Source: Sneathiella glossodoripedis JCM 23214 (lineage in GTDB: Bacteria; Pseudomonadota; Alphaproteobacteria; Sneathiellales; Sneathiellaceae). Taken from it: a stretch of DNA of 64,000 bases. Below the pieces are notes generated by a model that was not told where the DNA came from, made no database searches, and was given only the letters and a program-made list of their open reading frames with translations. Both the position numbers and the translations under genes were made by a program. Position 1 is the first letter of the stretch. Each line of letters opens with the position of its first letter. Below are positions 24,414 through 64,000 of the stretch, one piece after another. Location of the stretch: contig NZ_BAMS01000003.1 in NCBI RefSeq assembly GCF_000616095.1, forward strand, positions 310,001 to 374,000. The letters run 5' to 3'.

Positions 24414-25037
24414 ATGAAGAATTTTCAGGCGATGACATTTGTGCGGTGGTTGATCATGATTGGCCTGTTGCCTCTGCTGATCGCGTGCGAGGGGATCGTG
24501 GGTCCTTCAACGCCCACAGAATTCTACCGTTTGACCGCAGTTGACCTCTCAGCGCATGCTAAAGGCGCAGTGGACGGCACTGACCGGTTTATCGGGATTG
24601 GTCCCGTGTCCATTCCGGGATATGCGGATCGCCCGCAGATTGTCACCGCTGAGAAGGACGGCCGCCTGCTGGTGGACGATCTTCATCATTGGGCGGAGCC
24701 TGTTCAGGAAAATATAGAGCGGGTTTTGGTGGCCGATTTCGCATCATTAATGCGTTCAAGTCAGGTTTTTCGCTATCCGACAAATTTCACACCACCCGCG
24801 GGCAGTCTTCAGATTGAAATCGTGATCGGCGAGATGCTGAAAATGCCGGATGGCAAAATTCATCTCGAAGCGAGCTGGACCGTGAAAAATCTGGTTGATA
24901 ATCGGCTTTTGCTGCGTAATTCAATAAAATATGTTAGTAGCGATAGCGCTTCAAATTACACTCAGTATTCTGTGATTTTGAGCGGATTACTTGGGCAACT
25001 TTCCATTGATATTCTGAAAACCCTCCCAAGGGGTTGA
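24414..25037 (+). CDS. pqiC: PqiC/ABC-auxiliary outer-membrane lipoprotein
   Basis: 207 aa, begins one base after the pqiB stop, and carries a lipoprotein signal with lipobox LLIAC near residue 25. The rest follows the ABC_trans_aux (DUF330/PqiC) family: EFYRLTAVD near the N-terminus, IGIGPVSIPGYADRPQIVTAEKDGRLL-type strand, HHWAEPVQENIERVLVADFASLM, and IEIVIGEMLKMPDG. It is expected to sit in the outer membrane and dock the tip of the PqiB tube. Last gene of the pqi operon; the next frame starts within 25 nt. Confidence 0.88.
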   Translation: MKNFQAMTFVRWLIMIGLLPLLIACEGIVGPSTPTEFYRLTAVDLSAHAKGAVDGTDRFIGIGPVSIPGYADRPQIVTAEKDGRLLVDDLHHWAEPVQENIERVLVADFASLMRSSQVFRYPTNFTPPAGSLQIEIVIGEMLKMPDGKIHLEASWTVKNLVDNRLLLRNSIKYVSSDSASNYTQYSVILSGLLGQLSIDILKTLPRG

Positions 25038-25057
25038 TCAGCAACGGCGGAGCAAAC

Positions 25058-26613
25058 ATGCAAGCACCAGATGGGCATAGCAACATGAATGTATTGTTTA
25101 TCACGATTGATCAGTGGCGATATGACTGGTTGGGTGCAAATGGCAGCGATTTCGTTGAAACTCCCAATCTGGATCGATTGGCAGCTTTAGGCACAGTGTT
25201 CCAAAATCACTATACCTGCTCTGCACCGTGCGGCCCCTCCCGTGCAACCTTGCATACAGGGCTTTACCCAAGTAATCACCGCGCGATCAGCAACGGATCA
25301 CCTTTAAGCGTGTCCTTTACAAATCTGGCGAAAGAAGCGCGCAAAGGCGGGTATGAGCCGACATTGTTTGGCTATACGGATATTACGGCGGATCCCCGGC
25401 AAAAGCATCCCAACGATCCTGATTTGAAAACATACGAAGGGGTTCTCGATGGGTATTTTGTGGGCGCGCGTCTGAACGAAGCCAGCAAACCCTGGCTCGC
25501 TGATCTGATGTCCAAAGGTTATGATGTTCGCCAAGCGGGTTACGAAATTTATAATCCGGACCCAGATTTCACTCTGCCAGCGGATCGGCACATAACTTAT
25601 GCACCAGCTCGTTTTAGCGCAGCAGATAGCGAGACGGCCTGGCTCACCAACCGGGCGATTGACTTTGTAAACAGCCAGTTTGGCGATCCGTTTTTTTGCC
25701 ATGTCAGCTACTTGCGGCCTCATCCTCCTTTTATTGCGACCCCTGAATATCATGACATGTATGACCCGGCACATATGCCTGAACCGATTGATTTTGGTGA
25801 TCCGACCTCGCTGGAGGGAAAGCATCCGCTACTTGGTTTCGCACTCGGACATATTGAGCAATCCACATTTTTTATGACCGGAGACGGGCTCGCTCGCGAT
25901 CTGGATTTGCAGGCCGTCCGGCAGATACGTGCGACTTACTCAGCGCTGGTCAGTGAAGTGGATGCAAATGTGGGGCGGCTTTTGGATGCTCTTGAGCAGA
26001 GAGGGCAGTTGGATAATACCCTGATTGTGGTCACTGCTGATCATGGGGAGCAACTTGGTGATCATCACCTGTTTGGTAAACTTGGATTTTATGATCAAAG
26101 TTTTCACATCCCTCTGATTATCAAGCACCTACTCAGACGGGGCAGAAGCCGGGCGTGGTCACTGCATTTACTGAGTCTGTCGATATCATGCCAACGATCC
26201 TGCAGGTGATGGGACAGGATATTCCCTTGCAATGTGATGGTGCATCCCTATTGCCTTGGCTCAAAGGGGATACACCATCCAAATGGCGTGACGCTGTATA
26301 CTGGCTGTTTGATTTCAGGGACATAGAGCTGGCTATCCCTGAAAAGGCGCTTGGGCTCGCCCATGATGAATGCAGTTTGCTTGTCTGCCGGGATGACAGT
26401 TTCAAATATGTCCATTGTGTGAACCTGCCCCCCTTGTTGTTTGACCTGCGCAATGATCCTGAAGAGTTGCATAATCTGGCTGAAGAGCCTGATTATCAGG
26501 CTGTCCTTCTGGATTATGCGCAGAAAATGCTATCCTGGCGGATGAAAAATGAATTCGGCGCGCTGGATCATTACAAAGTCACAAGTAACGGAAAGATGGT
26601 CCTAGCCCGTTAA
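25058..26613 (+). CDS. Phosphonate monoester hydrolase / arylsulfatase family enzyme (frame slip near 26128)
   Basis: Alkaline-phosphatase-superfamily hydrolase, 518 aa after repair, cytoplasmic by the lack of a signal peptide. The formylglycine motif C-x-P-x-R is Cys58-Gly-Pro-Ser-Arg62 (SAPCGPSRATLHTG). Metal ligands include ITIDQW and TADHGEQLGDH. Segments such as ESVDIMPTIL, FDFRDIE, ECSLLVCRDDSFKYVH and LPPLLFDL follow rhizobial phosphonate monoester hydrolases closely as I remember them. The frame breaks after HIPLIIKH; adding one C to 'caccta' near 26128 gives IIKHPTQTG leading into VVTAFTESVD. Likely substrates are phosphonate or phosphate monoesters or sulfate esters. A formylglycine-generating enzyme is not in the window. 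Confidence 0.85.
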
Positions 26614-54657: not shown

Positions 54658-55503
54658 ATGGGAGAGTTCTTCCGACCGGAAAACAGGGATGCCCTTGTGT
54701 CTGCGTTGTCGCGGCGCCATTGGCGGTATTTGGCAGGTGGAACGGACTACTATCCCTCAATTGTCGGAAAAACAGAAACGTCAGATATTCTGGATTTAAC
54801 CGCTGTTGCGGAATTGCGAGGTATTTCTGAAGACACGGCTTACTGGCGAATAGGGGCGACAACCAGTTGGTCTGAAATTCGGGATTATAATTTTCCTCCG
54901 TTTTTTGATGGGTTAAGGCTCGCTGCGAAAGAAGTGGGCGGTATGCAAATTCAGGCAAGCGGCACGATTGGCGGAAATATATGTAATGCGTCACCTGCAG
55001 CGGACGGTGTGACAGCTTTACTCGCTTTGGATGCTGAAGTCGAAATTCTCGGTCCTCAAGGAATTAGAGTACTTCCCATCGATCAGTTTGTGATCGGTAA
55101 CCGCCGAACTGCCTTGAAAGAAGCTGAGATTGTCTATGGTATTCGCATTCCTAAACCAGCTGGTGATAGCGCGTTTGGGTATTTTAAAAAATTGGGATCC
55201 CGTAGATATTTGGTTATCTCGCTGGTTATGGTGTCGGCTGTTTTATGCCTGACAAAGGATCGTAAAATCACAGATGTACGAATAACGGTTGGGGCTTGTT
55301 CAGAAGTTGCCTGCCGTCTTTTTCAGCTGGAAAAAGCCTTGGCGGGAGCTTCCATAGATGAAAATCTGGAAGATGCTGTAAAGGCTGAACATCTTGCGAT
55401 TTTAAGCCCAATTGATGATGTTCGGGCGAGCGCTGAATACCGGTTGCAGGCTGCTCAATCGATGCTCCGCGATATGTTGAGTGAGTGGGGTCAATATGAG
55501 TGA
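54658..55503 (+). CDS. Molybdenum hydroxylase FAD-binding (medium) subunit
   Basis: 281 aa. FAD-binding motifs AGGTDYYPSI and TIGGNICNASPAAD (about residues 99-112), followed by FKKLGSRRYL, typical of the CoxM/XdhB family. Passes electrons from the fused 2Fe-2S/Mo subunit to FAD. GAGGAA ribosome site. Overlaps the next gene by 8 nt (ATGAGTGA). First gene of an operon that runs to the right edge. Confidence 0.9.
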   Translation: MGEFFRPENRDALVSALSRRHWRYLAGGTDYYPSIVGKTETSDILDLTAVAELRGISEDTAYWRIGATTSWSEIRDYNFPPFFDGLRLAAKEVGGMQIQASGTIGGNICNASPAADGVTALLALDAEVEILGPQGIRVLPIDQFVIGNRRTALKEAEIVYGIRIPKPAGDSAFGYFKKLGSRRYLVISLVMVSAVLCLTKDRKITDVRITVGACSEVACRLFQLEKALAGASIDENLEDAVKAEHLAILSPIDDVRASAEYRLQAAQSMLRDMLSEWGQYE

Positions 55504-58224
55504 ACGTTTCGTCTTATCTGTAAATGGTACGCAGCATGAGGTGGAAACATCACCGATCCGCCGGTTATCTGAGGTTTTGCGGGAGAATTTGCAACTTACG
55601 GGTACTAAAGTGGGGTGTAACGCGGGGGATTGTGGTGCCTGCACCGTACTGATCGATGACGAACAGATGTGCGCCTGTCTCACACCAGTTGCGCAAGTGC
55701 AAGGGCGTAGGATTGAAACAATAGAAGGGCTTGGAAAGTCCGGTGAGTTGAACGCGCTGCAACAATCGTTCAAACGTCATGGGGCTGCTCAATGCGGCAT
55801 ATGTTCTCCCGGGATGTTGGCTGCGGCGACATCGTTACTGCGCAAGGTTGAAACGCCCACGCAAGAACAAGTGGAAGATGCGATTGGGGGAATATTGTGC
55901 CGCTGCACAGGTTATCAGAAAATTGTGGAAGCCATTTTGGATTACCGCGGCACTAAGATGCAACAAGCCGTTGAAGCTGGTTCCGCTGTCGGTCAATCCC
56001 TTGCAAAAGTTGATGCGGATCCAAAATTGACAGGGGCCGAGCGGTATGGCGCAGATGACATTCCTGCCAATGCCCTGTGGGTTAAGGTTTTAAGGTCTCC
56101 ATTGTCGCACGCGAAGATTAAGCTGGGGAACTTGGATGAGGTGGTTCAGCAGATATCGGGACTGTACGAAATTCTGACCCACCGTGATGTTCCGTTTAAC
56201 CGGTTTGGTATTTATCCAGAGGGCAAAGATCAGCCAGTCCTGTGTGAAGATGTTGCCCGCTATCGAGGAGATGCAATTGTCGCTCTGGTGGGTGAAAAAG
56301 AGGTTATAAGCAGGCTAAATCTTGAAGATTTGCCCATTGACTGAGTGAATTGCCAGCGCTGTCAACCACCAAGGATGCTGTATCATCCAATGTTCCCATA
56401 TTGCATGAAGATCACCCGGATAACGTACTTATTGAAGGCAGCGTCGAAAAAGGGGATGTGACGCAATGCGGGGAAATTGTCGTGAGGGGAGAGTTTGAAA
56501 CTCGCTTTGTCGAACACGCATACATTGAGCCAGAGGCGGGATGGGCCCAGCGGATTGGGGATCGCATTGAAATGCATGTCACAACGCAAGCGGTTCATAT
56601 GGACCGCGATGAGATTGCGAGTGTGATGCGGCTTGAAAAAGAACTGGTTCGAGTAATTCCGAGTGCATGTGGTGGCGGTTTCGGCGGCAAACTGGATGTG
56701 TCCGTACAACCCCTTCTTGCAATTGCAGCTTACCGAAATGATCGGCCGGTGGCGATGGTATATGAACGTCCTGAAAGCATGATTGCGAGTACCAAACGGC
56801 ATCCTTCGCGCATTTGGACCGAATTTTCAGCGGATCGACAGGGGTATTTGCAGACTGCTCAGATGCAGGCGGATTTTAACACTGGTGCTTATGCCTCTTG
56901 GGGGCCAACTGTTGCTGGGCGCGTGCCAGTGCATGGGAGCGGTCCTTATTTTGTGCCCAGTGTGAAAATCACTGGCCGGGGAATATACACTAATGGTCCA
57001 CCCGCTGGGGCATTCCGGGGATTTGGTGTGCCACAGGCTGCCATTGCCCATGAGTGTATGATGGATGATTTGGCGGAAGAGTTAAAAATGGACCGCCTGG
57101 AAATCCGTCTCAAAAACGCGATCCGGGAGGGGCAAGAGACAGCTACGGGACAAGAACTGAAAGCAAGTGCGGGGCTTGCAGAATGTCTGCAAATGCTGCA
57201 GCCACATTGGCGGAGATTGATGGCTGAAGTGGATCAGTTCAATCAAGCGCAAAATGGTCGGTTGCGACGGGGTATTGGTATCGGTGCCATGTGGTATGGA
57301 ATTGGAAACACAGCCCTCTCCAACCCCTCCACCATGGAAGTTGGTATTAACAGGAAGGGTCAATTAACGTTATTTAACGGGGCGGTGGATATCGGGCAGG
57401 GATCTAATACTGTTCTACTGCAGATCTGCGCAGATGCCGCAGGCTTACCTGTCGCGGATTTTCACTATGTAATGGGTGACAGTGATTTGACGGAGGATGC
57501 TGGCAAAACATCGGCGTCGCGCCAGACATTTGTATCGGGAAAAGCCGCAGAGCTTGCAGGACTGGAATTGAGGAGGAAAATTCTACGCCATGTGAATGCA
57601 GGCGAAGATGCTCGGTTAAGTATGCAAGACAGATCACTGGTGGTTGAGGATCAAACCTCCTGTCACGAAATTCAGCTTGAAACCCTTACTCCAGATGAAA
57701 AAGGGCAAGTTTTTGTAGGGCGCGGCCGCTTCGATCCACCGACGACCATGCTGGATAAAAATGGTCAGGGTATTCCATATGCAACATATGGGTTTGCTGC
57801 TCAGATCGCTCTTGTCGAGGTGGATATGGAACTGGCAACCACTCGGGTGCTGGAAATCTTCGCAGCCCATGATGTTGGCCGTGCGATAAATCCACAGCAG
57901 GTTGAGGGACAAATACAAGGTGGAATTGCGCAAGGATTAGGGCTTGCCTTGATGGAGGAGTATGTCCCCGGCAAGACAGAAAATCTTCATGATTACCTCA
58001 TCCCGACAGTCGGGGACATGCCTGATATGACGGTGATTATAGTTGAGGACGCTGAGCCACTTGGCCCCTACGGTGCGAAGGGTGTGGGCGAGCCGGGACT
58101 GGTTCCGACGGCGCCAGCTATTTTTAGTGCGATCAGGCACGCAAGCGGAGTACGTGTGACGGAGGCGCCAATGCTGCCACACAGGCTGAAAGCTGCTTTG
58201 CAAAAACAGGAGGTAACAAGATGA
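55496..58224 (+). CDS. Fused 2Fe-2S and molybdopterin subunit of a xanthine-dehydrogenase-family hydroxylase (frame slip near 56343)
   Basis: 909 aa after repair. Residues 1-155 carry two [2Fe-2S] sites: CNAGDCGACTV and, later, CGICSPG with CRCTGY. From about residue 170 the molybdenum domain begins (AERYGADDIPANALWVKVLRSPL). It has GGGFGGKLD, PPAGAFRGFGVPQA and the catalytic Glu in GAKGVGEPGLV. The frame breaks after LEDLPID; adding one G ('gactgagtg' to 'gactggagtg') yields LPIDWSELPALSTT. So iron-sulfur and molybdenum parts form one chain, unlike the separate small and large subunits of most bacterial enzymes. Likely hydroxylates an N-heterocycle; nicotinate or a relative fits the next gene. 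Confidence 0.85.
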
Positions 58225-59662
58225 CCAAAACCTCAACCGGTTCGAAGCGTCAACCGCTGGATCAGGACTTGATCCGATGTGATGCATGTCCGGTGCTTTG
58301 CCGCATCAGGGTAGGTCAAACTGGCGCTTGCGACCGGTACGGAAATGTGGATGGGGTGCTGACCAGAATGGATCCCCTTGTCGTTACAGAAACGGCGCAG
58401 GCGGATACTCTTGCCCAGCCGATCAGGCCGATTGGGATGGAAATATTTTAAAGCCGCAGAACGTAACCATAACAGGTATCGGGTCCGGCACGACTTATCC
58501 GGATTACAAGCCAGCCCCGTTCATTGTGGGAGCAGAGGTGGATGGCGTTGATACTGTAACAGTCGTCTCTGAGGGCGTATTCAGTTATTGCGGCACAAAA
58601 ATAAAAATCGATACGGATCGGTATGTGGGCGATGAAACTGCGGCAGTCTTCGCTGAGGGTGAGCAAGTCGGCCATGTGACAACAGCAGAATATGGGAGCC
58701 AGATGCTTGCCATCGGAGGGGTTCGTCATTTGACGGGCGGGTCCAAAAAAGAAGGGCGGGTGACCTGCGATACGTTGCTGCGTTTGTGTAATAGAGAAGC
58801 TGTTACCCTTAACGTTGAAAATGGGGCAAAAGTTGTCGTTCAGGCGGGAAAACCTCCCATAATTGATGATGTGCAGGAAGAACGAATGCGGGTCGGGTGT
58901 GGCTCCGCTACCATTGGCATATTTGCACCTCAGTGGCATGGAAAAGTTGATGAAGTCATAGTCGTTGATGATCACATCACTGGTGTATTGAGCGAGCATC
59001 AAGCGGGTCAATTTTTACAAATGCCCTTATCAGGTATTCGGGTGCGTGGTCGTAAATCCACCCCAGGGCGATATTTTCAAGTCGCTGATCATGGTGCAGG
59101 TTGGGGAGGGACCGATATTACAGATCCACTTGATATCATATCGAAAATTGATCCGGAGCGGGCTTATGCGGGTATGCGGTTGCTGATGGTATCAACCACG
59201 GGGCAGGATAGTGCCTGGTACGTACTTGATGAGAATCTGGTGCCTGTCCCTACAGCCATGCCCGAAGAAATTCGCCAGATTGTTGATAGAATTGCCGAAA
59301 ATTGTGAACCCGCGCTTTGTACTGTCTTGTTTATGGCGGGCGCCGGAGGATCTTTGAGAGCCGGTGTTACGGAAAATCCGGTGCGATTGACGCGATCTGT
59401 TAAAGAGAGCCTGACCAAGGTGACCTGCGGAGGTGTGCCCGCCTATATCTGGCCTGGGGGAGGAATTACGATGATGGTGGATGTGTCGCAGATGCCGGAA
59501 AATTCGTTTGGGTATGTGCCGACACCAGCCATTGTCGCGCCAATCGAATTTACCTTATCGAAGCAGGATTTTGGCGAACTCGGTGGTCATGTGGAGAGAA
59601 TAATACCAGTTGAGGATGTACTGAAATCGCGAGATTTGAAGCGTCTTAGGTTGGAGCAATAA
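58221..59662 (+). CDS. 6-hydroxynicotinate reductase-like iron-sulfur protein (frame slip near 58430)
   Basis: 480 aa after repair. The N-terminus has a four-Cys cluster motif CDACPVLCRIRVGQTGACDRY (residues 20-40). The main body is a long conserved domain with SYCGTKIKIDTDRYVG, GGVRHLTGGSKKEGRV, VGCGSATIGIFAPQWHG, AENCEPALCTVLFMAGAGGS and PAYIWPGGGITMMVDVSQMP. The frame breaks at RPIGMEIF; one G added to 'ccgattgg' gives RPDWDGNILKPQ. This family is annotated as 6-hydroxynicotinate reductase, which partly reduces the pyridone ring. Overlaps the upstream gene by 4 nt (ATGA) and has GGAGG before the start. Activity on a different heterocycle is possible. Confidence 0.8.
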
Positions 59663-59663
59663 G

Positions 59664-60548
59664 GTGGTGGGGCAAGCTGTCGTCAGAATGATGCCCGATG
59701 GCAGGAGACTGCATCTGCAGCATGGTCCGATAGATCTAATTTGTCTGGCTGAAGGACCGGATATAGAAGTTTACAAAGCATATCAGCAGGCAGATCGATA
59801 TTTCGAGACCTTGTTACAAGGACTTGTGAATGATTTGCCGATTTTGCGACAAAAAGCTGGTGAAGAGGGCCGCTGGATCAAAGCTCCAAACATATGTGCT
59901 GTCAGCGAAAATATGATTAAAGCGGCCGAGCAATTCAGCCATTCATATTTTGTAACTCCGATGGCCGGTGTTGCCGGTGCGGTAGCGGATGCTGTGTTGA
60001 CTGAAATGTGCCGAGAAACAAACCTGGCGAAAGCATATGTGAATAACGGGGGGGATATTGCCTTTAGTTTAAGTCCCGGAAAAGTCTTTAAGACTGTAAT
60101 CGTGGATAATCCAGACAATCCGCGCTGTGATGCTGAAATCGAAATTACAAATAGCCAACCGGTTCGCGGCATTGCAACAAGTGGTTGGCGGGGTCGCTCT
60201 TTGTCCATGGGGATTGCGGATGCCGTAACGGTGCTTGCAAGAAACGCTGTTGATGCTGATATCGCAGCGACACTTATTGCCGGTGATGTGTACGTTGCAG
60301 ACAATGCTGTCTTGCAAAGACCTGCCGAAGAAATTGATGCGAGTACAGATTTGGGGCGGAGGCTGGTCACTGTAGATGTCAAAACCCTGTCTCCTCAAGC
60401 GCGCAGGGAGGCTTTGATGAAGGGGATGAGGACAGCAAACGTATTTATGTCAAAAGGGGTGATTTCTGGCGCTTATCTCTCACTTCAGGGAGAAGTGAAA
60501 AGCGTCAGTATGTCCAAAAGAATTTTCAGGGAGAGGTTACATGTCTGA
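59664..60548 (+). CDS. UPF0280 family protein
   Basis: 294 aa, GTG start behind TTGGAG. Matches the UPF0280/ApbE-like family: YFVTPMAGVAGAVADAVLTEM, AYVNNGGDIAFSL, and RGIATSGWRGRSLSMGIADAVTVLARNA, with DADIAATLIAGDV near the C-terminus. ApbE relatives transfer FMN to proteins, but UPF0280 has no proven reaction. It lies between the reductase-like gene and an AA_synth gene, so a helper role in the same pathway is likely. Overlaps the next gene by 8 nt (ATGTCTGA). Confidence 0.85.
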   Translation: MVGQAVVRMMPDGRRLHLQHGPIDLICLAEGPDIEVYKAYQQADRYFETLLQGLVNDLPILRQKAGEEGRWIKAPNICAVSENMIKAAEQFSHSYFVTPMAGVAGAVADAVLTEMCRETNLAKAYVNNGGDIAFSLSPGKVFKTVIVDNPDNPRCDAEIEITNSQPVRGIATSGWRGRSLSMGIADAVTVLARNAVDADIAATLIAGDVYVADNAVLQRPAEEIDASTDLGRRLVTVDVKTLSPQARREALMKGMRTANVFMSKGVISGAYLSLQGEVKSVSMSKRIFRERLHV

Positions 60549-61128
60549 ATTGGTGCAAATTCGCAAAATTAAAGTCGATGTGGAAGAGGTTTATCACGAG
60601 CGAGGGCCAGCGTTGGAAACTCCAATTTTAAAAGGAGCGGTAACAGTCGTTGTAAAAAACCCGTACGCAGGAAGATACGAAGAAGACCTGCTGCCATTTA
60701 TGGATGCTTTAAAACCGTTAGGACTCCAGCTTGCAAACAAGCTCATCGCCGCTTTGGGTGGAGACGCGAATGCTGTCTGTAGTTATGGTAAAGGTGCCAT
60801 TGTTGGTGAGGATGGCGAACTGGAGCATGGCGCAACCTGGCATGTAGCAGGTGGGTACGCCATGCGTGAAGCACTTGGGCAAGCTCTGGCAATTGTGCCA
60901 TCGAGTAAAAAGATCGGTCATTTGGGGGCGCGTCTGGAAATTCCTTTGACACACAAGGATGCCTCATATGTGAGAAGTCATTTTGACGCAATGGAAGTCG
61001 GTGGGGGAGACAGCCCTAGACGGGATGAAATCCTGTTTGCTCTTGTGATGGCAACAGGCGGACGACCTCATGCAAGGCTTGGCGGATTGGCCGCGGATCA
61101 GATTTCAAAATTTGACGGATTGCGATAA
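60541..61128 (+). CDS. AA_synth ('amino acid synthesis') family protein, function unknown
   Basis: 195 aa. Recognisable family segments: LKGAVTVVVKNPYAGRYEEDLLPFM, HVAGGYAMREALGQALAIVPSSKKIGH and EVGGGDSPRRDEILFALVMATGGRPHARLGG. No catalytic residues are assigned. These proteins often neighbour molybdenum hydroxylase, UPF0280 and ring-opening amidohydrolase genes. Ends 19 nt before the hydantoinase A gene. Confidence 0.82.
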   Translation: MSELVQIRKIKVDVEEVYHERGPALETPILKGAVTVVVKNPYAGRYEEDLLPFMDALKPLGLQLANKLIAALGGDANAVCSYGKGAIVGEDGELEHGATWHVAGGYAMREALGQALAIVPSSKKIGHLGARLEIPLTHKDASYVRSHFDAMEVGGGDSPRRDEILFALVMATGGRPHARLGGLAADQISKFDGLR

Positions 61129-61147: not shown

Positions 61148-63190
61148 ATGAAGGGTATTGAAATTGGTGTGGATGTTGGAGGCACTTTTACTGATCTGAT
61201 TTCGGTAAATCCGCAGAGCGGAGATATCAAGATCGCAAAAGTACCAACCACGACTGATAATCAGGCTTATGGGGTTATGAATGCTCTGGGTTCAGTTGGC
61301 GTTGATCTGAAGGGTGTCTCAGCAATCAGTCATGGCACTACAACCACGACAAATGCGCTGCTTGAGAGAAAAATTGCGAAAGTCGGTCTTATTACCACAA
61401 AAGGGTTTCGGGATATTTTGGAGCTGGGGCGGCGGACAAGACCAAAACCCTATGGGTTAAAAGGTCAGTTTACACCGCTCATTCCCAGAAACCTGAGACT
61501 TGAAGTGCCCGAACGTATGGATGCGGATGGAAAAGTGGTAACCCCGCTTGATGAGGCCGCGGTACTTGAAGCCGTAGGAAAATTGCGTGAGCTGGGCGTT
61601 GAAAGTATCGTCATTCATTTTCTGCATTCCTATAAAAATCCAACGCATGAGCGTCGCGCCAAGGAGATAGTGCTGCAAAACTGGCCCAACACATATGTAA
61701 CTGCGGGGCATGAGTTGTTATCGGAATATCGGGAATATGAAAGGGGTACAACAGCAGCCATTAATGGGGCGATCAAACCGGTGCTCGACCGATATATCAT
61801 GCGATTACAGTCTGAACTTGAAGATGCCGGTTTTACACATGATTTGCTAGTCATGCAGGGAAATGGTGGAAGCGTTGCCGCGTCCATGGTCACTGAAGGG
61901 GCGGTGAGTACAGTTATGTCGGGACCTGCTTCGGGTGTTATGGCTGCAGCGGCTACGTCACGGGTTGCGGGAATTGATCGTGTGATCACCTACGATATGG
62001 GGGGAACCAGCAGCGATGTTGGCGTCGTGCAGAATGGCATACCACAAGTTACATCTGAACTGGATCTGGAATACGGCTTGCCCATTCATGTCCCTATGGT
62101 TGATGTGCACACAATTGGGGCGGGCGGTGGCTCGATTGCCTATCTGAATGAGGCAGGTCTGTTGGAGGTGGGGCCGAGAAGCGCTGGCGCCATGCCGGGA
62201 CCAATCTGCTATGGGCGCGGTGGTCGTGAACCCACAATTACAGATGCCAACCTGTTACTTCGCAGACTTGATCCCGAAGCTTTGCTGTCTGTTGAAAGTT
62301 CCGTTTCTATTTCTGAAATTGAACAGATTTTTGAAAAGAAAATTGGACGTTTTCTGGGCATGAACGCGCTGGAAGTTGCGGATGCAATATTGAAAATCGC
62401 GAATAACAAAATGGCGGGTGCCATACGGATGGTTAGCCTCTCCAAAGGGCTGGATCCGCGAGATTTTGCGTTATTTGCGTTTGGCGGCGCAGGTCCTCTT
62501 CACGGAGTCTCTCTTGCAAGGGAACTTGGAATTCCGAAAGTCGTTTTGCCTGCCAGACCAGGAATAACCAATGCGCTTGGGTGTGTTGTTTCTGATCTGA
62601 GGCATGATTTTGTAAATACGATCAATTGCCCATTACAATCGCTTGATATTGAGGAGGTACGCAGCCTAATTCGCTCACAAATCCAGCAAGGGCTGTCGGC
62701 GCTTGAAAAAGACAACATAGTGGTTTCGAAACAGGCTTTTGTGTTTTCTGCAGATATGCAGTTTCAAGGACAAAGCCACATTTTACCGGTCACGATCAGC
62801 GGACCTGATGTTACCCTTGAAGAATTGCAAAGCCGTTTCGATGAGGTTTATTGGACGCGTTTTGGTGTGGAACTTCCGGAAATAAGAGCTGTTCTGGTAA
62901 ATGTGCACACTGCGGTTATCGGGCGTCGTGAAAGCGTGGATCTGGCAATGTTAAAAAGCAACACTCCTGCCGCGACGCTGGAGCAAGCTGTTGTATCCGA
63001 CCGCCCTATCCTGTTTGACGGTAAATGGCATGTAACTCAAATTTATGAGCGTGAGAGGTTACCAGACCAATTCAGATTGCAGGGGCCGGCCATTATTACT
63101 CAGTTGGATACAACAAGTGTCATAGAGCCCGGTTGCACAGTAGTTCAGGACGATTACGGGAACCTGATCGTGGAGATTTCCAATGAGTGA
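61148..63190 (+). CDS. hyuA: Hydantoinase/oxoprolinase subunit A (HyuA type)
   Basis: 680 aa from ATG 61148. ASKHA-type ATP-binding fold: GVDVGGTFTDLISVN, SHGTTTTTNALLER, YDMGGTSSDVGVV, VHTIGAGGGSIAYLNEAG, PGPICYGRGG, and FALFAFGGAGPLHG. Uses ATP to open a cyclic amide (hydantoin, 5-oxoproline, or a lactam from the hydroxynicotinate route). Works with the B subunit that starts 8 nt before its stop (ATGAGTGA). Confidence 0.9.
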   Translation: MKGIEIGVDVGGTFTDLISVNPQSGDIKIAKVPTTTDNQAYGVMNALGSVGVDLKGVSAISHGTTTTTNALLERKIAKVGLITTKGFRDILELGRRTRPKPYGLKGQFTPLIPRNLRLEVPERMDADGKVVTPLDEAAVLEAVGKLRELGVESIVIHFLHSYKNPTHERRAKEIVLQNWPNTYVTAGHELLSEYREYERGTTAAINGAIKPVLDRYIMRLQSELEDAGFTHDLLVMQGNGGSVAASMVTEGAVSTVMSGPASGVMAAAATSRVAGIDRVITYDMGGTSSDVGVVQNGIPQVTSELDLEYGLPIHVPMVDVHTIGAGGGSIAYLNEAGLLEVGPRSAGAMPGPICYGRGGREPTITDANLLLRRLDPEALLSVESSVSISEIEQIFEKKIGRFLGMNALEVADAILKIANNKMAGAIRMVSLSKGLDPRDFALFAFGGAGPLHGVSLARELGIPKVVLPARPGITNALGCVVSDLRHDFVNTINCPLQSLDIEEVRSLIRSQIQQGLSALEKDNIVVSKQAFVFSADMQFQGQSHILPVTISGPDVTLEELQSRFDEVYWTRFGVELPEIRAVLVNVHTAVIGRRESVDLAMLKSNTPAATLEQAVVSDRPILFDGKWHVTQIYERERLPDQFRLQGPAIITQLDTTSVIEPGCTVVQDDYGNLIVEISNE

Positions 63191-64000
63191 GCTAGATCCA
63201 ATCACCCTTTCGGTTATTCAAAATGGCCTGGTTCAGGTTTGCAACGAAATGGACCTTGCTTTTGTACGGGCTGCTTTCAGTCCTGTAATATCAGAAGCGC
63301 TGGATCGCTCAGATGGCATATATGCAGCAGACACGGGTGAATTGATTGCGCAAGGTGAGCTGGGTTTACCTGTTTTTGTTGGTACAATGCAGTTCTCCAC
63401 TCAAGCAGTGATTGAGCGGGCGAAAGACGTACAGCCTGGTGACATTTATATCGTCAACGACCCTTATTTGGGTGGTACGCATCTTATGGATGTTAAATTT
63501 GTAAAACCATTTTTCTATAGGGGGAAACTATGGTCATGGCTCGCCAATACTGGCCATTGGCCTGATTTTGGCGGTGCTGTTCCTGGAGCTTTTCTGCCAA
63601 TGCAACGGAGGTTGAGCAAGAAGGGTTGCGACTTCCACCAGTAAAACTTTTCAAAGAAGGCAAGCTTGATCAGGAAATCCTTTCGATCGTGCTATCAAAT
63701 ATCCGAATTTCTGATCAGCGAATAGGTGACATAAAAGCTCAATCTGCAGCACTGCATGTTGGAGAGCAACGCTTGACCGAATTACTCGATCGATATGGAG
63801 AGGACACAGTTACGCAAGCAATTGGTGAGTTGAAGTGCCGTGCAAGGCAGCAAATGCGCCGCAAAATTAGCGATATACCTGATGGCACATATGAAGGGAT
63901 ATCCTATGTGGATTCCGATGGTGTTGTCGATGAGCCCCTTCGTATTTGTATGAAGGTTACCGTTGAAGGCGAAGAGATGCGATTTGACATGTCAAATTCC
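63183..64000 (+). CDS. hyuB: Hydantoinase/oxoprolinase subunit B, 3' end outside window (frame slip near 63593)
   Basis: Partner of HyuA; 273 residues are visible after repair and the gene runs off the right edge. N-terminus reads LDPITLSVIQNGLVQVCNEMDLAF and SEALDRSDGIYAADTGELIAQG, the family's start, with VNDPYLGGTHLMDVKFVKP. The frame breaks after VPGAF; adding one T to the run at 63590-63593 gives GAFSANATEVEQEGLRLPPVKLF, and this frame then stays open to base 64000. Together with HyuA it would open a ring amide, the expected step after ring hydroxylation and reduction. Confidence 0.85.

Follow-up and report, generated by a model that had tools for sequence, protein, structure and literature searches.

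The window analyzed here, the whole stretch of 64,000 nucleotides from Sneathiella glossodoripedis JCM 23214, contains a single operon in which the genes of a UPF0280 protein and of an AA_synth protein stand together with those of a molybdenum hydroxylase, a 6-hydroxynicotinate-reductase-like protein (Hnr), and the HyuAB proteins (Table 1). Both families were assigned with scores above the cut-offs of their models, UPF0280 with 321.1 bits against NF003322 (cut-off 290) and AA_synth with 232.4 bits against PF06684 (cut-off 27). With HyuA, the top NCBIfam model was that of caprolactamase alpha, the score of 503.9 bits lying below its cut-off of 1000. The second piece of HyuB corresponds to L002:1127-2416 in the extended stretch of the contig. 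Related loci were collected from 60 of the 71 genomes of the class in which UPF0280 was matched; 58 of those fetched had Hnr, and 57 were used for the counts of gaps and neighbors. The first-pass annotation had placed the UPF0280 and AA_synth genes inside a catabolic operon, and this was borne out, within the window by HyuA and the subunits of the hydroxylase, and elsewhere by an amidohydrolase gene present in 16 of the 57 related loci. The same annotation had described the two genes as translationally coupled, or nearly so, to their neighbors. The spacing agrees: a single base separates the Hnr stop from the UPF0280 start, the UPF0280 and AA_synth genes overlap by 8 bases, and 19 bases lie between AA_synth and the ATG of HyuA. 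Over the 57 related loci, with start codons assigned by script, the gap between the Hnr and UPF0280 ORFs had a median of -4 bases and was exactly -4 in 26. A search with PADLOC found no system, and promoter-like sites were rarer than in shuffled sequence.

Table 1. Genes and gene pieces of the operon, in positions of the window.
Feature	Position	Strand	Evidence
Molybdenum hydroxylase (xanthine dehydrogenase family), FAD subunit	54658..55503	+	FAD_binding_5 and CO_deh_flav_C above cut-off
Molybdenum hydroxylase, [2Fe-2S] part and start of molybdenum part; piece 1 of frameshift-split gene	55481..56344	+	Fer2, Fer2_2, Ald_Xan_dh_C
Molybdenum hydroxylase, remaining molybdenum part; piece 2 of split gene	56350..58224	+	MoCoBD_1, MoCoBD_2
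Hnr-like reductase, N-terminal piece with CDACPVLC motif	58221..58451	+	Frame reading; profile match 58245-58406
Hnr-like reductase, main piece, different frame	58421..59662	+	Profile match 58421-59653
UPF0280 protein, ApbE fold (predicted), intact	59664..60548	+	NF003322 above cut-off; model and fold matches
AA_synth (PF06684) protein, intact	60541..61128	+	PF06684 above cut-off; 3byq E 6.3e-60, 2qtp E 1.3e-46
HyuA (hydantoinase/oxoprolinase A)	61148..63190	+	Domain match
HyuB, piece 1 of frameshift-split gene	63183..63644	+	Hydantoinase_B positions 1-146
HyuB, piece 2	63626..64000, continuing beyond the window to contig position 374915	+	Hydantoinase_B positions 145-519

In the window, frameshifts interrupt three genes of the operon: that of Hnr at about position 58430, that of the hydroxylase large subunit at about 56340, and that of HyuB at about 63640. 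The part of Hnr with the CDACPVLC motif thus lies in one frame and the remainder in another, and a profile search returned the protein as two pieces. In related loci these genes are mostly single ORFs, with median lengths of 920 (the fused hydroxylase large gene), 501.5, and 582.5 amino acids. Since the indels hit several unrelated genes, an error of assembly is suggested; decay of the genes may be the alternative. The gene of a downstream aldehyde dehydrogenase (L002:9230-10674) is likewise split, and the sulfatase gene at 25034-26613 may be split as well.

The setting recalls the 6-hydroxynicotinate reductase pathway of Eubacterium barkeri, with which the related loci share the hydroxylase, Hnr, and, in the 16 loci with an amidohydrolase, an enamidase-type gene; the single amidohydrolase tested matched the E. 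barkeri enamidase (2vun) with an E value of 4.8e-109. Unlike the E. barkeri pathway, the one considered here belongs to an aerobic, proteobacterial setting, and the window has HyuAB, not enamidase. HyuA was found in 19 of the 57 related loci, none of which (each about 20 kb or less) has both HyuA and the enamidase-type amidohydrolase. Because the two never share a locus, this distribution suggests that HyuAB can replace enamidase in the opening of the reduced ring. The literature searched gave no relevant account of pyridine clusters.

AA_synth had initially been described as lacking an assigned reaction, and this holds only in part, as a relative with a reported effect exists. In the accessible portion of one report, TgnF, which like AA_synth belongs to PF06684, is said to stimulate TgnE in the degradation of trigonelline, and a TgnF-like stimulation by HcdD, also of PF06684, could not be demonstrated (PMC7913881). 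As presented there, TgnF and HcdD resemble the protein of the window in being PF06684 members of ring-cleavage pathways, and differ from it in that trigonelline or coumarin is the substrate whereas here it would be hydroxynicotinate. The chemistry common to these relatives would be one of 2-formyl diacids or the corresponding enamines, and AA_synth may act after ring opening on the 2-formyl diacid or its enamine, a possible, if rather doubtful, assignment. Among the 385 genomes of the class, AA_synth was present in 59 of the 68 with Hnr and in 23 others. On three plasmids (L201, L202, and L204), AA_synth was found with an LLM monooxygenase, a flavin reductase, an alpha/beta hydrolase, and an aldehyde dehydrogenase, with no Hnr cluster, an arrangement that resembles the trigonelline clusters. 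Two other contexts of AA_synth looked different from those of the three plasmids.

With regard to UPF0280, the first-pass annotation had noted a resemblance to ApbE in the GGDIAFSL motif, and both modeling and profile comparison upheld it. The AlphaFold2 model was obtained with a pLDDT of 95.6, and each of the 16 Foldseek matches with E <= 0.001 was either DVU1097 (2o34) or a structure of the ApbE family. VIA-align gave a Z score of 20.1 to 2o34 and of 14.5-17.3 to ApbE, Ftp, and FmnB over 204-221 residues, the best other fold being that of uricase with a Z of 8.0. The UPF0280 profile aligned with that of 16 ApbE proteins over residues 105-205 (probability 91.5, E 8.7e-7), and the motif itself is present, with N127, G130, and D131 invariant in 49/49 aligned sequences. 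Judged from the predicted fold and the profile match, the relationship of UPF0280 to ApbE is genuine, in structure as well as in sequence.

The kinship does not extend to strict membership of the ApbE family, which was rejected on three grounds: the score of UPF0280 against Pfam ApbE (PF02424) was 19.3 bits, under the gathering cut-off of 25.6; the position aligned with the catalytic His of ApbE is occupied by Met, Leu, Arg, or Phe in all 49 sequences; and the partner Hnr lacks the known acceptor motif. The GGD/GGE region and the other two triad positions are shared with ApbE, Ftp, and FmnB (PF02424), as Ser173 and Asp199 are invariant in 49/49 UPF0280 sequences and align with the invariant triad Ser and Asp of the 16 ApbE proteins. 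Near the lost His, R178 is kept in 48/49 sequences and S179 in 49/49. A further difference from these enzymes is that neither a signal peptide nor a lipoprotein signal is visible in UPF0280. Loss of ApbE-like flavin-binding residues had been named at the outset as the result that would speak against a flavin role; alignment with ApbE found the loss to be partial, the triad His being gone while the fold, Ser, and Asp are retained. In the accessible part of one study, ApbE is described as moving FMN from FAD by means of an Asp-Ser-His triad, with a need for Mg2+, onto the target D-x-x-[S/T]-G-A-[S/T], and the activity of V. cholerae ApbE H257G, in which the His is replaced, is described as decreased (PMC12052999). 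The corresponding part of an earlier study names the metal-binding residues as critical (PMC4767422). Since H257G decreases activity and it is the metal-binding residues that are named as critical, loss of the His in UPF0280 need not be fatal. No PF02424 protein was matched in 39 of the 68 genomes with Hnr, among them that of the window, some of the 39 being incomplete assemblies. Such proteins were somewhat commoner in genomes with Hnr (29/68) than in the others (72/317). Neither UPF0280 nor DUF375 is mentioned in the accessible portion of a survey of ApbE proteins (PMC8238504).

The distribution of UPF0280 follows that of Hnr closely. Among the 385 class genomes, UPF0280 was matched in 71 and Hnr in 68, and the latter coincide, genome by genome, with the 68 in which the UPF0280 match was strong. 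Excluded from these 68 were weak UPF0280 matches in three genomes without Hnr (G009, G143, and G365), with 28-36% identity across a portion of the protein, and the ORFs at two of the three sites lack the GGD motif. In a sample of the phylum, the same 13 of 190 genomes carried UPF0280 and Hnr, 8 of them being absent from the class sample; an Hnr match of 41 residues and 19 bits in a further genome (G444) was excluded. With plasmids, all 26 records with Hnr were among the 27 with UPF0280. On the one remaining record, the Hydrogenophaga plasmid pBPS33-1 (L173), UPF0280 was matched at four places without Hnr, and IS1071 transposases adjoin in the stretch read. A first scan of genome contigs with UPF0280 as the query returned no match, and a second scan used Hnr, the sampling being within Pseudomonadota. 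At least 588 Hnr loci in named genomes were counted by the latter, and the best 80 were taken. Of these, 72 passed a strict filter for UPF0280 adjacency, 5 more carried UPF0280 within the locus, and the remaining 3 had it elsewhere in the genome.

The arrangement of the two genes is equally regular. In 58/58 fetched Hnr loci, UPF0280 follows Hnr on the same strand, with 12 to 205 bases between the end of the Hnr match and UPF0280, and the pair is intact at loci where the hydroxylase does not adjoin (L075, L080, L081, L085, L087, and one of Pleomorphomonas). Because the pair persists in loci without an adjacent hydroxylase, UPF0280 tracks Hnr, not the hydroxylase, by gene content. The association of UPF0280 and Hnr is a real and unusually strict one of two genes; no link between them was found in the open-access papers searched, chiefly in their main texts. 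Co-divergence does not single out Hnr as the partner of UPF0280: in a mirror-tree of 36 loci with checked proteins, the partial r of UPF0280 was 0.04 for Hnr versus 0.27 and 0.32 for the hydroxylase subunits. An earlier mirror-tree of 27 loci, for which UPF0280 ORFs had been chosen by length and are suspected to be wrong, gave an r of 0.01 for UPF0280 and Hnr. With regard to individual loci, the Hnr frame at L139:3856-6549 is open for 898 amino acids and extends back into the hydroxylase region, and may represent a fusion. In L073 (same genus, genome G041), the FAD subunit of the hydroxylase directly precedes Hnr, with no match to the hydroxylase large gene between or near them.

These patterns bear on the question of whether UPF0280 might be a pathway enzyme that acts on a small molecule, such as a reduced pyridone. 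Its location in a catabolic operon would suit such a role, as would the two-domain T-fold that it has in common with uricase. We nevertheless consider this improbable, given that UPF0280 follows Hnr though the downstream step varies between the enamidase-type gene and HyuA, and that the UPF0280 family serves an unrelated pathway elsewhere.

The main piece of the window Hnr has 64-82% identity to its relatives in 66 of the 68 genomes, those in the two others being split or partial. No NCBIfam model matched Hnr, and NCBI annotates the plasmid relatives as 6-hydroxynicotinate reductase. Alignment revealed at least eight conserved cysteines, of which C27, C30, C34, and C44 are present in 40/40 sequences reaching that region and C136, C195, C239, and C374 in 41/41. 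A flavinylation site of the DxxSGA[ST] type is absent from all sequences of both alignments (0/41 and 0/27). The structure model of Hnr was of moderate quality (pLDDT 78.1) and matched no solved structure at an E of 0.001 or better, the best Z score, 4.7, being for a portion of the glycine cleavage T-protein. The E. barkeri Hnr described by Alhapel in 2006 is said to contain covalently bound flavin together with Fe-S clusters. The covalent flavin goes unmentioned in the accessible parts of two reviews that cite Alhapel 2006.

UPF0280 is a family that we take to be COG2122, and this identity fits with the finding that, among 14 control genomes, the UPF0280 models matched only those of two methanogens, M. 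jannaschii and M. acetivorans. DUF39 was matched in these two and in Synechococcus, and gave no match in the genome of the window. DVU1097, MA1715, and DvMF_0044 are members of the same family, 2o34 being the closest PDB entry to the window protein in sequence as well as in structure. According to the accessible part of a genetic study, the synthesis of homocysteine in Desulfovibrio depends on COG2122 along with DUF39 and a NIL/ferredoxin protein; the same source describes a distant relationship of COG2122 to ApbE that seemingly stops before the flavin-binding region of the latter, and cites a suggested role with persulfide (PMC5764234). A flavin role would thus not be the first function for the family, as the first-pass annotation had supposed, since it already has this genetic one. 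The two systems differ in the partner, which in the COG2122 case is DUF39, linked genetically through homocysteine synthesis, and in the present case is Hnr, in a genome without DUF39.

A role in flavin attachment and a role in sulfur handling are accordingly the two main readings of UPF0280. In the latter, UPF0280 would serve in persulfide transfer or Fe-S cluster assembly, with DUF39 as the client in methanogens and Desulfovibrio and Hnr as the client in proteobacteria. The persulfide role suggested for COG2122 (PMC5764234, in the part accessible), the conserved cysteines of Hnr, and the presence of DUF39 in both methanogens with UPF0280 are consistent with such a factor. It is unlikely, however, in view of a predicted fold that coincides, for the greater part of UPF0280, with that of FAD-binding ApbE, invariant UPF0280 residues that include no cysteine, and an Hnr in which none of 41 members matched DUF39 (HcyBio, PF01837) at E values up to 10. 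Homology of Hnr to DUF39 was rejected on this last result, allowing that a very distant kinship may exist.

UPF0280 quite probably has some role in the maturation of Hnr. In the reading that we favor, and to which we assign a probability of roughly 0.45, this maturation would consist of the attachment of flavin. UPF0280 would function as a maturation factor of the ApbE fold with the neighboring Hnr as its client, binding FAD with a metal ion and transferring the flavin onto Hnr to yield a covalent flavin such as that reported for the E. barkeri enzyme. The transfer would be a variant of the ApbE reaction that proceeds without the usual His and at an acceptor site other than DxxSGA[ST]. This proposal is based on the fold, on the two triad residues that are retained, on the strictness with which UPF0280 occurs together with Hnr and next to it, and on the pathway setting; the contact of UPF0280 with Hnr and the covalent flavin as its product are what we infer. 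The lack of a PF02424 protein in 39 of the 68 Hnr genomes also speaks for the proposal. Counting against the flavin step, at the level of sequence, are the missing catalytic His, the lack of a flavinylation motif in Hnr, and the Pfam score below cut-off, to which may be added a co-divergence that does not single out Hnr, the partnership of the family with DUF39 in other organisms, and the silence of the two reviews, in the parts searched, on a covalent flavin of Hnr. The three weak UPF0280 matches and the one plasmid without Hnr also count against the pairing.

With both the His base and the known acceptor motif missing, binding may remain while transfer is lost, and UPF0280 could then be a flavin-binding subunit of Hnr or a non-covalent loader of its FAD or FMN, any covalent link being self-formed. 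The strict pairing with Hnr would suit a subunit. Such a role is nonetheless assigned a low probability: the 64-82% identity of Hnr across the class compares with 38-50% of UPF0280 to the window protein, which is unexpected for partners in a shared active site, and the E. barkeri Hnr was reportedly purified together with its flavin. To return to flavin attachment, a broader proposal, put forward more tentatively than the flavin step itself, is that UPF0280/COG2122 may form a second, cytosolic branch of protein flavinylases that modifies Hnr, and in anaerobes perhaps DUF39 as well. Both the acceptor site and the catalytic base would then be new, the base being provided by the conserved GRSxSxGIAD loop. 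If flavin attachment is true, the origin of the covalent flavin in 6-hydroxynicotinate reductase would be explained, a family so far linked only genetically to homocysteine synthesis would gain a biochemical role, and protein flavinylation would extend beyond the ApbE motif. Given that the genes of UPF0280 and Hnr go together as a unit, this plausible mechanism is directly testable by co-expression.

Two minor observations were made on Hnr. At about residues 140-172 (in the numbering of L106:8959-10464), 40/41 members have a weak similarity to the C-terminal barrel of the glycine cleavage T-protein, with a best E value of 0.00012 and, in one member, a score below the Pfam cut-off. A ferredoxin-NADP reductase is encoded near Hnr in a Sulfitobacter and a Comamonadaceae plasmid.
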